From assembly GCF_003258295.1 (NCBI RefSeq), contig NZ_QKYN01000066.1:1-64000 (forward strand): 64,000 bases of DNA, given 5' to 3'. Below the pieces are notes generated by a model. It made no database searches and was not told where the DNA came from. It saw only the letters and a list, made by a program, of their open reading frames with translations. Position numbers and translations under genes: made by a program. This DNA comes from Streptacidiphilus pinicola. Its GTDB lineage: Bacteria; Actinomycetota; Actinomycetes; Streptomycetales; Streptomycetaceae. Below, piece by piece: positions 55-62,398 of the stretch (the stretch's first letter is position 1; the number at the start of each line of letters is the position of its first letter).

Positions 55-563
55 TCGCGCGCGATCTTCTCCTGGAGCTTGAGGATGCCCTGCAGCAGCG
101 CCTCAGGACGCGGCGGGCAGCCGGGGACGTAGACGTCGACCGGGATGATCTGGTCGACGCCCTTGGTCACCGAGTAGGAGTCCCAGTAGGGGCCGCCGGA
201 GTTCGAGCAGGCGCCGAACGAGATGACGTACTTCGGCTCGGGCATCTGCTCGTACAGGCGCTTCACGGCCGGGGCCATCTTGTCCGTCACCGTGCCCGAG
301 ACGATCATCAGGTCCGCCTGGCGCGGGCCGGGCGCGAAGGGGATGACGCCGAGCCGGATGAAGTCGTGCTTGGCCATGGACGCGGCGATGAACTCGATCG
401 CGCAGCAGGCCAGGCCGAAGTTGAAGCACCACAGGCTGTACCGGCGGCCCCAGTTCAGCACGACCTTGATCGGGTCGGGCGCCATCCGGGCCAGCGGGCC
501 CAGCTTGCGGACTTCGAGCGCGCCGGGACGTGAGGGGTCCGGGGTTCCGAGATTCACGACCAT
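1..563 (-). CDS. nuoB: NADH-quinone oxidoreductase subunit B (partial, 3' end missing)
   Basis: This is the peripheral-arm subunit of complex I that carries the N2 4Fe-4S cluster and passes electrons to quinone. The ATG at 563 begins [10 protein letters not shown]; the body contains [14 protein letters not shown] (tandem Cys), [28 protein letters not shown] and [16 protein letters not shown], which supply the cluster-ligand cysteines. About 187 codons are visible and no stop is reached before the edge. The start overlaps the end of nuoA by 10 nt, so the two are translationally coupled. The motifs [15 protein letters not shown] resemble the second nuo operon of streptomycetes more than the canonical one (from memory). 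The last codons coincide with the 54-bp palindrome, so the extreme C-terminus should be treated with caution. Confidence 0.93.
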
Positions 564-955
564 TCCAGGACACCCTTCTTCCAGGCGTAGAGCAGACCCA
601 CCGCGAGGAAGCCGATGAAGACACCCATCTCCACCAGCGTCCCCGTCCCGAAGCCGGGCCCGGAGAAGACCGTGGCCCAGGGGAACAGGTAGATCGCGTC
701 CACCGCGAAGATCACATACAGGAAGGCGTAGACGTAGTAGCGGACCTGGGTCTGCGCCCAGCCCTCGCCCACCGGGTCGACGCCGCACTCGTAGGCCAGC
801 AGCTTCTCCGGCGTGGGCGCGAAGGGCCGCAGCAGCCGGTTGGCGGTGAAGGCCGTACCGACGAAGAGGATCCCGATCAGCGCCATCAGGCCGACGACGG
901 AATAGGCGTGGAAGTACCCCGGGTGGGATGCCGCCAGTGCCTGCACGGCCTGCAT
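554..955 (-). CDS. nuoA: NADH-quinone oxidoreductase subunit A
   Basis: Small membrane subunit of complex I, 133 aa with three predicted membrane helices. It has the conserved [11 protein letters not shown] motif and the [24 protein letters not shown] block typical of NuoA/ND3. The ATG at 955 was chosen because GGAGGCGAC lies just upstream and the longer reading frame upstream has no family similarity. It is the first gene of a leftward nuo operon and overlaps nuoB by 10 nt. The 238-nt gap to the divergent sensor kinase must hold the operon promoter. No NADH-input genes are visible, so whether this locus encodes a full or partial complex cannot be judged here. Confidence 0.95.
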
Positions 956-1117
956 GGTCGGTCGCCTCCGTTGGTCGCGTGTCTGGCTTAGGTGTCCGGG
1001 TCGCGTGTGGCGGGTGTGTCTCTTGACCCAATCCTTGCCTTTACGGGGCAGGAGTCTAGGTCCCAGCGGCTCCGACCTGTGAACCGCGCCCACCCGTTGA
1101 GCGGTCCCGGCCCCGGT

Positions 1118-1135
1118 GGTAGGGCTGTCCCCACC
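1118..1135 (+). promoter_or_regulatory. Operator-like dyad upstream of sensor kinase
   Basis: GGTAGGGCTGTCCCCACC is an imperfect dyad with 7-nt arms (6 of 7 pairing) around CTGT. The same 21-nt stretch (1117-1137) recurs at 3682-3702 upstream of the kinase-less sensor paralog. It lies 58 nt before the kinase ATG. The repeat is seen directly; recognition by a LuxR-type response regulator is inferred. Confidence 0.6.
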
Positions 1136-1193
1136 CCCGGTCTCCGCCCATCCCCATGGCGCACGGCACCCCGGAACGGTCAGGCTTGGGATC

Positions 1194-2348
1194 ATGACTG
1201 AGCCGAACCGCCGTGCCCGGCGCCCCCACTTCGACGCCCGGATGGGGCGCCAGGTCGCCTACCTGCTCGCCGACCTCCCGATCGGCATCCTCGGCTTCGC
1301 CCTCACGGTGCCGCTGCTCTCGCTCGGCATCGGTCTGCTCGTGACCGTGGTGGGCTTCTGGCTGCTCTTCGCCGTACTGCTGTTGCTGCGGGCGGGCTCG
1401 GCGATGGAGCGCGCGCGGGCCCGCGCGCTGCTGGGCGAGGAGGTGCCGGACCCGGCGCCGGTCCAGGCGCGCAAGCCCGGCATCATGCAGAAGGTCTTCT
1501 CGACCCTGGGCGACGGCCTGTCCTGGCGCACCGCGCTGTACTTCGTGCTGATGCTGCCCTGGGGCATCGTCGCGTTCACCCTCACGGTGGTCTCCTCGGT
1601 CCTGCTCTTCCCGCTGCTGCCGTGGATCGTCCACGGGCTCTCCGCGGTCGACCGGGCGCTGGTCGGCTCGCTCCTCTCCCCCGGCCGGCTGACCGAGCGC
1701 GTCCGCGAGCTGGAGGACGACCGCGGCACGGTCGTCGACTCGGCCGCCGCCGACCTGCGCCGGATCGAGCGCGACCTGCACGACGGCGCGCAGGCGCGGC
1801 TGGTCACCCTCGCCATGGACCTGGGCCTGGCCAAGGAGAAGCTGACGGAGGATCCGGAGGCGGCGGCGCGGATGGTCGAGGGCGCGCACAACGAGGTGAA
1901 GCTGGCCCTGCGGGAGCTGCGCGACCTGGCCCGCGGCATCCACCCGGCGGTGCTCACCGACCGCGGCCTGGACGCGGCGCTGTCCTCGGTCGCCGCCCGC
2001 TGCCCGCTGCCGGGCGGCGTGCGGGTGGAGGTGGAGCTGGACGAGCGGCCGGACTCGGCGATCGAGGGGATCGCCTACTTCACCGTCAGCGAGCTGCTCA
2101 CCAACGCCGCCAAGCACGCCCGCGCCGACAGCGCGAGCGTGGAGATCTGGCGCGCCGAGGACCGCCTGATGCTGCTGGTCCGCGACGACGGCACGGGCGG
2201 CGCGCAGGAGCTCCCGGGTGGCGGCCTGGCCGGTCTCGCGGAGCGGATCCGGGCCGTGGACGGGGTCTTCGTGGTCAAGAGCCCGCTGGGCGGGCCGACG
2301 GTCGTCACGGCCGAACTGCCCTGGCGCACGCGCGGCACCAGCCGGTGA
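1194..2348 (+). CDS. NarL/DesK-type sensor histidine kinase
   Basis: Membrane sensor kinase of 384 aa. The N-terminal third (about residues 15-160) has four hydrophobic segments matching the actinobacterial putative-sensor domain. It is followed by HisKA_3 with the phosphoacceptor motif ERDLHDGAQARLV (His about 196) and a HATPase_c domain (ELLTNAAKHARA, VRDDGTGG, GGGLAGLAERI). The start MTEPNRR at 1194 was preferred to an upstream ATG because it places the shared dyad at 1118-1135 in the promoter. No response regulator is adjacent; a LuxR-type regulator lies at 61.7-62.4 kb beside korA. In S. coelicolor the corresponding kinase and regulator genes are, from memory, close together next to the second nuo operon, so the pair may have been separated here. 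The ligand is unknown. Confidence 0.88.
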   Translation: MTEPNRRARRPHFDARMGRQVAYLLADLPIGILGFALTVPLLSLGIGLLVTVVGFWLLFAVLLLLRAGSAMERARARALLGEEVPDPAPVQARKPGIMQKVFSTLGDGLSWRTALYFVLMLPWGIVAFTLTVVSSVLLFPLLPWIVHGLSAVDRALVGSLLSPGRLTERVRELEDDRGTVVDSAAADLRRIERDLHDGAQARLVTLAMDLGLAKEKLTEDPEAAARMVEGAHNEVKLALRELRDLARGIHPAVLTDRGLDAALSSVAARCPLPGGVRVEVELDERPDSAIEGIAYFTVSELLTNAAKHARADSASVEIWRAEDRLMLLVRDDGTGGAQELPGGGLAGLAERIRAVDGVFVVKSPLGGPTVVTAELPWRTRGTSR

Positions 2349-2442
2349 TGCCGGATTTGACCGTATGTTCGTCACGGTTAAGAAGCTGTACTGCGACGGT
2401 TGGGTCTCTGCCCCTACACCCTTCGCCCCGGTGTCACTAAGC

Positions 2443-2484
2443 TACGGCGTTCGACCGCGCGTGAACGCGCGGTCGAACGCCGTA
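2443..2484. terminator. 19-bp perfect hairpin, likely terminator
   Basis: Two perfectly complementary 19-nt arms (2443-2461 and 2466-2484) flank a TGAA loop. It lies between the kinase stop (2348) and the next gene (2526). There is no T-tract, as is common for streptomycete terminators. It could also act in the 5' leader of the downstream gene. Confidence 0.6.
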
Positions 2485-2525
2485 CGTATCGCCGATGCAC
2501 CGAAGGAACTCGGGGGACACACGAA

Positions 2526-3095
2526 GTGACCACGCCGCAGAACCCGTACCAGACCCCGCAGCAGGGCGGCCAGGCCCCGCAGAACCCGTACGCCGCGCCG
2601 GGTGGCGCGGTCCCGCCTCAGGGTTACCCCGGCCAGGCCGCGCCCAACCAGGGCGTCCCGCCGCAGGGTTACCCGGGCCAGGCCCCGCAGGGCTTCCCGG
2701 CCCCGCCCGCCGCCGGCTACGCCGCCCCGCCGGCCGCGCCGAAGGTCTCCGTCAAGCGCCGCTTCGGCTTCGCCGGGGCGCGTCTGATCGTCAGCCTCGT
2801 CCTGCTCGTCGTGGTCGGTGGCGGCTACTGGGTCTACGACCAGATGAGCGGCGGCGCCGACACCGCCAAGGCCGGCGACTGCATGCACAACGACGGTTCG
2901 GACACCAGCCCGGACCTGCACGTCATCAGCTGCTCCGACTCCGGCGCCCAGTACAAGGTCGTCAAGGCCGCCAGCGGTGACGACAGCAGCCAGTGCAACG
3001 ACGCCCAGGGCGCGACCAAGGTCTACACCCAGACCGGCGGCCGCGGGACCTCCGACGTCACCCTGTGCCTGGCCGTCCTCGGCAGCAACGGCTGA
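2526..3095 (+). CDS. LppU/SCO3897-family membrane protein
   Basis: A 189-aa protein of unknown function. A Pro/Gln/Gly-rich low-complexity cytoplasmic head (residues 1-75, repeats of PQGYPGQ) is followed by basic VKRRFGFAGARL, one membrane helix (LIVSLVLLVVVGGGYWVY), and an extracytoplasmic domain with four conserved-looking cysteines (GDCMHND, VISCSD, SSQCNDA, TLCLAV). This matches the LppU/SCO3897 family of actinobacteria. The GTG at 2526 has GGGGGA about 9 nt upstream. The GNAT gene follows after 7 nt, so the two are probably co-transcribed. The Pro/Gln-rich head is typical of streptomycete single-pass proteins and often makes family assignment difficult. Confidence 0.75.
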   Translation: MTTPQNPYQTPQQGGQAPQNPYAAPGGAVPPQGYPGQAAPNQGVPPQGYPGQAPQGFPAPPAAGYAAPPAAPKVSVKRRFGFAGARLIVSLVLLVVVGGGYWVYDQMSGGADTAKAGDCMHNDGSDTSPDLHVISCSDSGAQYKVVKAASGDDSSQCNDAQGATKVYTQTGGRGTSDVTLCLAVLGSNG

Positions 3096-3102
3096 CGCAG
3101 CC

Positions 3103-3687
3103 TTGCCGACGATCGTCCGCTTCGCCGAGCACGCGGTCCCGCCCGAACTCCGCGCGCAGGCACTCGCCCTGCAGGAGCAGGCGTGGCCGAGCGAGCCCGG
3201 CGGGGCGGACGATCCCGCGCACGACCCCGCACACGACCCGGCGCTGGAGCCGTACAGCCTGCTGCTCCTCGACGCCGACCGGACCGTGCTGGCCGCACTC
3301 GACGTGCTCAGCAAGGAGTTCACGCACGCGGGTGAGCGCTGGCGCGCCAGCGGCCTGAGCCGCGTCGTCACCGACCGGGCCCGGCAACGCGCGGGCCACG
3401 GCCGCACGTTGGTGGCCGCCGCGCTGGCGGGGATCCGCGACAGCGGCGTCGACCTCGGCCTGTTCACCTGCGACCGCCCGCTGCGCGCGTTCTACGCGGG
3501 CGCCGGCTGGCAGGAGTTGCCCGGTGCCGTCCTGGTCGGCGGCACGCCCGAGGCGCCGTTCCCGAGCGACCAGTGGGACAAGGTCACCATGGGCGCCTTC
3601 TTCACCCCGCGCGCCCGCGCCGCCGCGCCGCGCTTCGCCCACACCCGGATCGCGCTCCACCCCGGGAGCATCGACAAGCTCTGGTAG
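3103..3687 (+). CDS. GNAT family N-acetyltransferase
   Basis: Predicted cytoplasmic acyl-CoA-dependent acetyltransferase of 194 aa. The acetyl-CoA pyrophosphate-binding signature is RQRAGHGRTLVAAAL, followed by a strand-helix ending LRAFYAGAGWQELPG, typical of GNAT motif B. The likely start is TTG at 3103 (LPTIVRFAEH), 7 nt after the preceding stop; it lacks a strong ribosome site, so coupling to the upstream gene is likely. The substrate cannot be inferred. Its TAG stop lies within the shared dyad at 3683-3700, so the promoter of the next gene overlaps this coding end. Confidence 0.75.
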   Translation: MPTIVRFAEHAVPPELRAQALALQEQAWPSEPGGADDPAHDPAHDPALEPYSLLLLDADRTVLAALDVLSKEFTHAGERWRASGLSRVVTDRARQRAGHGRTLVAAALAGIRDSGVDLGLFTCDRPLRAFYAGAGWQELPGAVLVGGTPEAPFPSDQWDKVTMGAFFTPRARAAAPRFAHTRIALHPGSIDKLW

Positions 3688-3700
3688 GGCTGTCCCCACC
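3683..3700 (+). promoter_or_regulatory. Second copy of the operator-like dyad
   Basis: Identical to 1118-1135 (21 nt identical when flanks are included, 3682-3702). It overlaps the stop codon of the GNAT gene and lies 110 nt before the ATG of the kinase-less sensor protein. Confidence 0.6.
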
Positions 3701-3810
3701 CCGAACACACCGAGTCACCCCAATGCCCCCGCGGCGCCCGCCCGGCAGGCTGGAACGCAGCACACGATCCAGCGATGCACGAGAAGCGACGCACGAAAGG
3801 CGGCTGCGGC

Positions 3811-4431
3811 ATGACCACCCCCGCGATCCCCACAGGCCGGACCTGGCGGGAGACCCTCCATCTGATCCTCGACCTGCCGCTGGGCATCCTCTCCTTCAGC
3901 TACGTGGTCGTTCTTCTCGCCTTCGGGCTCGGCACCTCGATGACCTTCCTCGGGCTGCCGGTCCTCGTCGCCTGCGTCGGCGGGGCGCGCGGCTTCGCCG
4001 CGATGGAGCGGGCCCGCGCCCGCGCGCTGCTCGGTGTGGACGTCCCCGCGCCCGCGACGCCGACGCCGCCCCGCCCCGGCTTCGTCGGCTGGATCCGCGG
4101 CATGCTCGGCAACGGCGCGAACTGGCGTGCCGCGCTCTACGCGTTCCTGCTGCTGCCGATGGGCATCCTCGGGTTCACCCTCGCGGTGGTGCTCTGGAGC
4201 GTGGGCCTCTCCGCGGCTCTCTACCCGCTCTACCAGTGGGTCTTCCCCAGGTACGTGGGCTGGCCCGGCTACAGGCTGTGGGAGAACAACGGCCACAGCC
4301 ACTACCTCTCCGGCTGGCCGGAGATCGCCGCCACCTGCGTCGCGGGGATCGTGCTGGTGCTGCTCGCGACGCAGGTGGTGCGGGGGCTGGCGGCGGTGCG
4401 CCGGGGCATGGTGCGCGGGCTGCTGCGCTGA
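3811..4431 (+). CDS. Kinase-less sensor-domain membrane protein
   Basis: A 206-aa protein with four hydrophobic segments. It is paralogous to the N-terminal sensor domain of the kinase at 1194. Both share a LPxGILxF block, the AMERARARALLG motif, an xxWRxALYxxLLLPxGIxxFTLxVV block and a closing membrane segment. It ends after the membrane domain with RRGMVRGLLR and has no HisKA or HATPase region, and no kinase remnant lies downstream (the convergent gene ends at 4436). Start ATG at 3811. It may modulate signalling by hetero-oligomerising with the full kinase, or be a decayed second kinase; both are inference. Confidence 0.8.
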   Translation: MTTPAIPTGRTWRETLHLILDLPLGILSFSYVVVLLAFGLGTSMTFLGLPVLVACVGGARGFAAMERARARALLGVDVPAPATPTPPRPGFVGWIRGMLGNGANWRAALYAFLLLPMGILGFTLAVVLWSVGLSAALYPLYQWVFPRYVGWPGYRLWENNGHSHYLSGWPEIAATCVAGIVLVLLATQVVRGLAAVRRGMVRGLLR

Positions 4432-61698: not shown

Positions 61699-62382
61699 TC
61701 AGGAATTCAGGTAGGTCAGCACCGCCAGCACCCGGCGATGGTCCTCGGCGCTCTGGCCCAGACCCAGCTTGGCGAAGATGTTGCTGACGTGCTTCTCCAC
61801 GGCCCCGTCGGAGACCACCAGCTGCCGCGCCACGGCGGCGTTGCTGCGGCCCTCGGCCATCAGGCCCAGCACCTCGCGTTCGCGCGGCGTGAGGTCCGCT
61901 AGCACGTCCCGTTTGCGGCTCCGGCCGAGCAGCTGGGCCACCACCTCCGGGTCCAGGGCGGTGCCGCCGCGCGCCACCCGGGAGACCGCGTCGACGAACT
62001 CGCGCACCTCCGCCACCCGGTCCTTGAGCAGGTAGCCGACGCCGCGCGTGGAGCCCGCCAGCAGCTCCGAGGCGTAGCGCTCCTCCACGTACTGGGACAG
62101 CACCAGGGTGCCGACGCCCGGGTGGCGCTCGCGCAGCGCGATGCAGGCCCGCACGCCCTCGTCGGTGTGGGTGGGCGGCATCCGCACGTCCGCCACGACC
62201 ACGTCCGGCAGGCCCTCCGGGGACGCCGCCAGCTCCTCGGCGAGGGCCAGCAGCGCCTCGCCGTCCTCCACCGCGCCGACCACCTTCAACCCGCGGTCGG
62301 TCAGCAGTCTGGTGAGCCCCTCACGGAGCAGCACGGAATCCTCGGCGATCACAACACGGAGCGGTGCGGACTCAAGCGGCAT
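61699..62382 (-). CDS. LuxR/NarL-family response regulator
   Basis: A 227-aa regulator. The receiver domain has [15 protein letters not shown], the phospho-Asp in [17 protein letters not shown], and [13 protein letters not shown]. The LuxR HTH is [51 protein letters not shown] at 62382 (or GTG 62388) lies 10-16 nt after the polyprenyl synthase stop, so it is probably read with that gene. It lacks an adjacent kinase; the sensor kinase at 1194 is the obvious candidate partner. The family is the one that controls DesK-like kinases. Confidence 0.92.
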
Positions 62383-62398
62383 CGTCACATGCTAGAGG

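Follow-up and report, generated by a model that had tools for sequence, protein, structure and literature searches.

Locus organization and the twin dyad copies

The 64,000-nucleotide (nt) stretch analyzed here (contig NZ_QKYN01000066.1 of Streptacidiphilus pinicola, positions 1 to 64,000; hereafter the window) carries a sensor histidine kinase gene and a gene for a kinase-less sensor, each preceded by a copy of the same short dyad, and a distant gene for a NarL/LuxR-type response regulator. Judged by synteny, the locus is a local form of the AbrC1/C2/C3 system of Streptomyces, in which the gene at 1194 corresponds to AbrC1, the gene at 3811 to AbrC2 minus its kinase and the regulator at 61.7 kb to AbrC3. 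The arrangement is best read as a variant of this known system, in which a conserved operator of an AbrC3-type regulator would control the kinase and the kinase-less AbrC2 derivative. In Streptomyces, AbrC is a regulator of antibiotic production, and its use of two kinases with one regulator is unusual. The features concerned are the following.

554..955, minus strand: nuoA, divergent from abrC1, its upstream region shared with dyad copy 1
1118..1135, plus strand: dyad copy 1 (GGTAGGG-CTGT-CCCCACC), upstream of abrC1 and conserved there in relatives
1181..1186, plus strand: CAGGCT, a −10-like hexamer that follows dyad copy 1 at 45 nt
1194..2348, plus strand: sensor histidine kinase with PF13796, HisKA_3 and HATPase_c, AbrC1 ortholog by synteny
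3683..3700, plus strand: dyad copy 2, which includes the stop codon of a GNAT gene (3103-3687)
3746..3751, plus strand: CAGGCT, a −10-like hexamer that follows dyad copy 2 at 45 nt
3811..4431, plus strand: kinase-less sensor with PF13796 only, in the AbrC2 position and placed with AbrC2 sensor domains by a quick tree
61699..62388, minus strand: NarL/LuxR-type response regulator with Response_reg and GerE, AbrC3 ortholog by synteny

An earlier note on this DNA had described an identical 21-nt element at 1117-1137 and 3682-3702, ahead of two genes that share a sensor domain. Both observations were confirmed, the common domain being PF13796, with HisKA_3 and HATPase_c present in the first gene only. 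Scanning the window with the 18-mer returned 2 exact matches and nothing else at up to 3 mismatches (shuffle mean 0.12), and 0/100 shuffles of the window gave two matches. In the genome-wide search proposed in the same note, the 8.43-Mb genome was found to hold 2 exact copies, both in the window, and none with one mismatch, leaving these two as the only sites with fewer than 2 mismatches. At up to 3 mismatches there were 12 sites, against 14 for a reversed-pattern control, and as a group the 10 weaker sites do not stand out from that control. No wide regulon was seen in this genome in a search that used the fixed 18-mer and did not extend to a free N4 spacer with mismatches. On the shuffle, genome-wide and control-window counts (the last given below), a chance repeat was rejected.

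The dyad symmetry attributed to the element held for its 7-nt arms and CTGT spacer but is imperfect in the window, where 6/7 arm pairs match; the perfect form, GGTAGGGCTGTCCCTACC, is present in four relatives (G003, G005, G012 and G014). Copy 2 does contain the TAG of the GNAT gene (3685-3687), as had been pointed out, but this overlap looks incidental because G005, G007 and G010 retain the copy-2 dyad even though tblastn of the retrieved stretches detected no GNAT gene. A proline-rich membrane protein (2526-3095) is also encoded between the two sensor genes; its C-terminal domain is of the LppU/SCO3897 type (NCBIfam), and only some relatives have this protein.

Conserved promoter architecture

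A dyad-anchored alignment of abrC1 and sensor promoters revealed a common layout of dyad, variable stretch and CAGGCT-like hexamer. In the window, the hexamer at 1181..1186 would place the transcription start at or beside the ATG at 1194, predicting a leaderless transcript. For copy 2 the predicted start is at about 3758. In promoters of the own family the pattern NAGNNT lay 44-46 nt past the dyad in 27/32, and the same spacing was found in 19/27 class-wide promoters with arms of at least 13/14. Averaged over all 105 offsets, with the peak counted in, the two sets had 0.38 and 0.27 hits, respectively. A further set of promoters came from 80 relatives kept as named loci, nearly all labelled Streptomyces, and here 63/118 had NAGNNT at 44-46 nt (0.48 per offset outside the peak). 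The own-family set of 32 left out G006, which is incomplete and has broken frames, as well as the G002 and G015 sensor promoters, which have no dyad (arms of 10 and 9).

Within Streptacidiphilus, G006 again excluded, the best dyad upstream of abrC1 had arms of at least 11/14 in 13/13 genomes shown and that upstream of the short sensor in 12/13, and although a score of 11/14 alone is not rare in controls, perfect 14/14 arms occurred in 7 and 10 of these genomes, respectively. Arms of at least 12 were found in the named loci upstream of abrC1 in 34/63, abrC2 in 32/64, the regulator in 2/76 and korA in 1/78; at a threshold of at least 13 these counts became 22/63, 3/64, 0/76 and 0/78. The site is degenerate in one arm in many named Streptomyces, which might explain a weak effect of AbrC3 on the kinases there. 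It could be argued that the copies have no function, arising by chance or, abrC1 and abrC2 being paralogs, as a shared upstream block inherited from their duplication. However, the arms and the −10 spacing are preserved across the family while the intervening sequence mostly varies, and sequences upstream of the regulator and of korA stay at background, all of which makes a functionless repeat very improbable.

A split form of the AbrC locus

The AbrC proteins of Streptomyces coelicolor (SCO4598/4597/4596 for AbrC1/C2/C3) resemble the system described here in combining two related sensors with one NarL-type regulator. The order nuoA-abrC1-abrC2-regulator occurs as a single run in 61/80 named loci, with a single kinase in 2 and a split form in 2 (L224 and L280), most of the loci outside these layouts being incomplete. 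Synteny and the other Streptomyces among the named loci, which do not include S. coelicolor A3(2), are the basis of the orthology. One or two AbrC-type kinases and a regulator ortholog were also found between nuoA and korA-korB in G014, G016, G017, G018, G019 and G021. The layout matches that of AbrC1/C2/C3 in S. coelicolor, as far as the available parts of the published accounts describe it (PMC4428217, PMC9739842, PMC9239103, PMC3098853), including nuo2 next to abrC1 in the portion available of one of them (PMC9239103).

The window differs from this arrangement in two respects. First, the gene at 1194-2348 is a kinase with PF13796, HisKA_3 and HATPase_c, but there is no second full kinase, the gene at 3811-4431 consisting of the sensor domain alone. 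Second, the regulator lies 57-59 kb from the sensor genes and starts 10 nt past a polyprenyl synthase gene, within a same-strand run of nuoN, polyprenyl synthase, response regulator and the alpha and beta subunits of a 2-oxoacid:acceptor oxidoreductase. The oxidoreductase beyond the regulator was also seen in named Streptomyces and is presumably there in S. coelicolor. By gene order, then, the abrC1-abrC2-abrC3 cluster of other genera is split in Streptacidiphilus: the regulator is also apart from the sensors in the other members of the genus examined except G006 (no regulator match), as well as in G015 and G023.

No kinase remnant was detected in the 1.6 kb after the short sensor in any of the 16/16 genomes with the short form (lowest E 0.13). 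A quick tree placed the short forms from Streptacidiphilus with three AbrC2 sensor domains (support 0.83), although some deeper nodes were weak and the AbrC1 of G023 landed beside the clade of short forms and AbrC2. The ratio of nonsynonymous to synonymous substitution rates (dN/dS) against six relatives was 0.22-0.43 for the short sensor, 0.26-0.49 for abrC1 and 0.07-0.21 for the regulator; the short sensor is therefore maintained under purifying selection. The locus thus represents a natural experiment in which one kinase appears to have turned into a kinase-less sensor while its promoter was kept.

The regulator is 79-84% identical to those of the 80 named relatives and has a single match per genome in 114/121 family genomes (E <= 1e-85). 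By E-value its best NCBIfam models are MadR and MctR, but the scores of 109.1 and 97.7 bits fall short of the curated cut-off, 300 in both cases, so that it is not a member of either. The sole solved structure among the matches listed at E <= 1e-20 is DevR/DosR of Mycobacterium tuberculosis (3c3w), which has the same combination of a NarL-type receiver and a LuxR-type helix-turn-helix but is distant (E 1.5e-21) and has another sensor partner and another site. DevR/DosR binds a G-rich dyad. Three genomes (G020, G050 and G055) have the dyad and no AbrC3 match, a lack that an assembly gap can explain because abrC1 runs into the contig end in all three. These assemblies, from two genera, stop inside abrC1 (G020:C80, G050:C4 and G055:C12), perhaps at a hard-to-sequence stretch.

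Distribution across Actinomycetes and the recognition helix

In its general form, GGTRGGG-N4-CCCYACC, the dyad is found again ahead of abrC1 and abrC2 within the family and ahead of related PF13796 kinases across Actinomycetes. An arm score of 13 or more was reached by 27/83 kinase upstream regions (88 kinases minus 5 in loci that were too short) compared to 12/1768 control windows from the same loci, some of which may contain genuine sites, and by 26/74 kinase regions when the own-family AbrC loci were removed. Pfam confirmed PF13796 and HisKA_3 in all five distant kinases tested. When perfect palindromes alone were sought upstream of 22 paralogous kinases, the result was mixed.

We then compared half-sites with the recognition helices of adjacent regulators, at helix positions that we take to be the NarL contact residues. 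Of the 88 kinases, 22 without an adjacent regulator were dropped, and the remaining 66 were collapsed to one locus, the best-scoring, for each of 45 distinct helices. QRIF (QR) helices occurred with TGTCGGG in 3/3 cases compared to 0/42 for the other helices (Fisher p 7e-5), and helices with A replacing E at the first contact position occurred with GGTGTAC (>=12) in 3/5 compared to 0/40 (p 7e-4); both p values are descriptive only, because the helix classes were chosen after the data had been seen, only the best-scoring locus stood for each helix and all three QR loci belong to a single genus (g59). In one genus, kinase promoters with a perfect TGTCGGG-N4-CCCGACA stand beside genes for QRIF-helix regulators (L330, L333 and L357).

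Predictions fixed beforehand were applied to 43 further loci, of which 30 were usable after 13 without an adjacent regulator had been dropped. GGTRTAC at 12 or more was found with 2/6 A-class helices compared to 0/24 others (controls 2/467). GGTRGGG at the same threshold accompanied 6/18 helices of the E and G classes (E 1/10, G 5/8) and none of the H and S (0/6) or A (0/6) classes, with 21/467 in controls. No QR helix occurred among the 30 usable loci. The hold-out weakly suggests that the half-site partly follows the recognition helix of the neighbouring regulator. In the S. pinicola genome itself, the comparison covered three related kinase loci out of 54 NarL-type regulator matches. Their regulators carry the helices AKH, AKH and SKH, and one of the loci, L397, has a GGTGTATCCAGGTACACC dyad; because these three helices differ from that of the 61.7-kb regulator and L397 has its own dyad, the latter regulator is the best match to GGTRGGG among the regulators examined.

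Taken more broadly, these patterns raise the possibility, which we advance tentatively, that PF13796 kinases across Actinomycetes share one plan, with an 18-bp dyad, about 45 nt and a −10 hexamer, in which each dyad would be read by the NarL-type regulator of its own operon and one or two helix residues would set the half-site (GGTRGGG, TGTCGGG or GGTRTAC). In Streptacidiphilus, such a plan would put the kinase-less AbrC2 remnant under its parent system as a built-in modulator. If true, the relation between helix and half-site would allow site prediction for many unstudied regulators and amount to a readable code of specificity in a large family that has been little studied.

Candidate reader of the dyad and sign of control

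The earlier note had proposed a LuxR-type reader, with the regulator at 61.7 kb as the best candidate, and had suggested that the system may autoregulate its sensor and a decoy sensor. The first part is strengthened by synteny, the class-wide linkage of the dyad to this kinase and regulator family, the partial covariation of helix and half-site and the different helices of the three related regulators in the same genome, and control of the sensor promoters further agrees with the spacing between dyad and −10 hexamer. Autoregulation of the regulator gene itself found no such backing, its upstream dyad scores being at background in the genomes examined. The dyad is a candidate operator that is probably bound by the AbrC3-type regulator at 61.7 kb and would control both sensor genes. 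A phosphorylated regulator dimer would bind GGTRGGG-N4-CCCYACC, whose centre lies about 67 nt ahead of the predicted transcription start, and would control, most likely activate, two separate promoters, those of the AbrC1 kinase and of a conserved AbrC2 remnant that retained its membrane sensor and lost its kinase. With the cluster split, the regulator gene now stands 57-59 kb away behind a polyprenyl synthase gene, and the putative operator is retained at both sensor promoters; the shortened sensor may in turn affect the kinase. A conserved operator with fixed promoter geometry would offer a concrete place for testing AbrC control. We found no description of an operator upstream of both sensors in the AbrC literature, nor of the dyad itself by title or abstract opening, in a search that lay outside most subscription papers.

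Several observations weigh against this assignment. The regulator gene has no above-background dyad (76 named loci; 0 at 13 or more, 2 at 12 or more). Among the 121 family genomes, 27 lack an exact match to GGTRGGGYTNNCCCYACC, and 23 of these 27 have the regulator. The helix comparison carries the selection effects noted above (post hoc classes, best locus per helix, a single genus for the QR loci), and in the hold-out the E class reached only 1/10 for GGTRGGG and the A class only 2/6 for GGTRTAC. The AbrC3 consensus of Rico 2014 is reportedly GAASGSGRMS, which is unlike the dyad; a literature text search gave no match to this consensus. In S. coelicolor, according to the part of the report available, AbrC3 autoregulates its own promoter and leaves kinase expression unaffected, and abrC1 and abrC2 are co-transcribed (PMC4428217).

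The remaining point concerns the genus labelled g6, where dyads also precede MMPL and MacB/FtsX exporter genes. In this genus (L171-L190) the dyad was seen before MMPL, MacB/FtsX ABC-transporter and abrC2 genes, and also in an interval between a small-protein gene and an MFS gene, which suggests an exporter regulon. Of 65 sites at such other loci, only 17 had the 44-46-nt NAGNNT spacing on a side, again unfavorable to the assignment, and matches at offsets 13 (13 matches) and 19 (17) were as common as at 45 (13). The dyad in g6 may therefore belong to a wider regulon or have another reader. AbrC may govern exporters in some genera, as the dyad hints, or some other regulator, such as an exporter repressor, could read the dyad and also control the AbrC sensor genes, which would fit with the missing copy at the AbrC3 gene and with the lack of a kinase effect of AbrC3 in the available part of the S. 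coelicolor study (PMC4428217). We consider a different reader quite unlikely, as the dyad tracks PF13796 kinase operons through families of Actinomycetes, the half-site partly varies with the helix of the adjacent regulator, and in 20 g6 loci, whose open reading frames were inspected by eye, the only regulator-like gene besides the AbrC kinases was a GntR-like gene about 1.5 kb away (5/20).

With the AbrC3-type regulator as the reader, the operator could still serve to repress both sensor genes in a negative feedback. The sequence holds nothing that fixes the sign of control, and the offsets of 13 and 19, as common as 45 over the 65 other sites, give layouts compatible with repression at those genes. 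In the abrC promoters, however, the dyad keeps a constant distance upstream of the −35 region, a position that is usual for activators. Repression is thus unlikely, if less so than a different reader, and AbrC3 is described as a positive regulator in the available part of a further study (PMC9739842).

Minor observations

The contig opens with a 54-bp perfect palindrome (1-54), probably an assembly artefact of the contig end. Among the 10 weaker sites in the S. pinicola genome, L009 and L010 carry NAGNNT at offset 45, L010 within a coding-like frame. L009 (G000:C131:19412-19429) has 13/14 arms with NAGNNT 45 nt on and lies upstream of a gene that, by eye, encodes a probable secreted hydrolase. 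The frame in which it sits runs from stop to stop, with the site at its extreme 5′ end and the likely start codon, also judged by eye, further in, so that L009 could be a third site in this genome.

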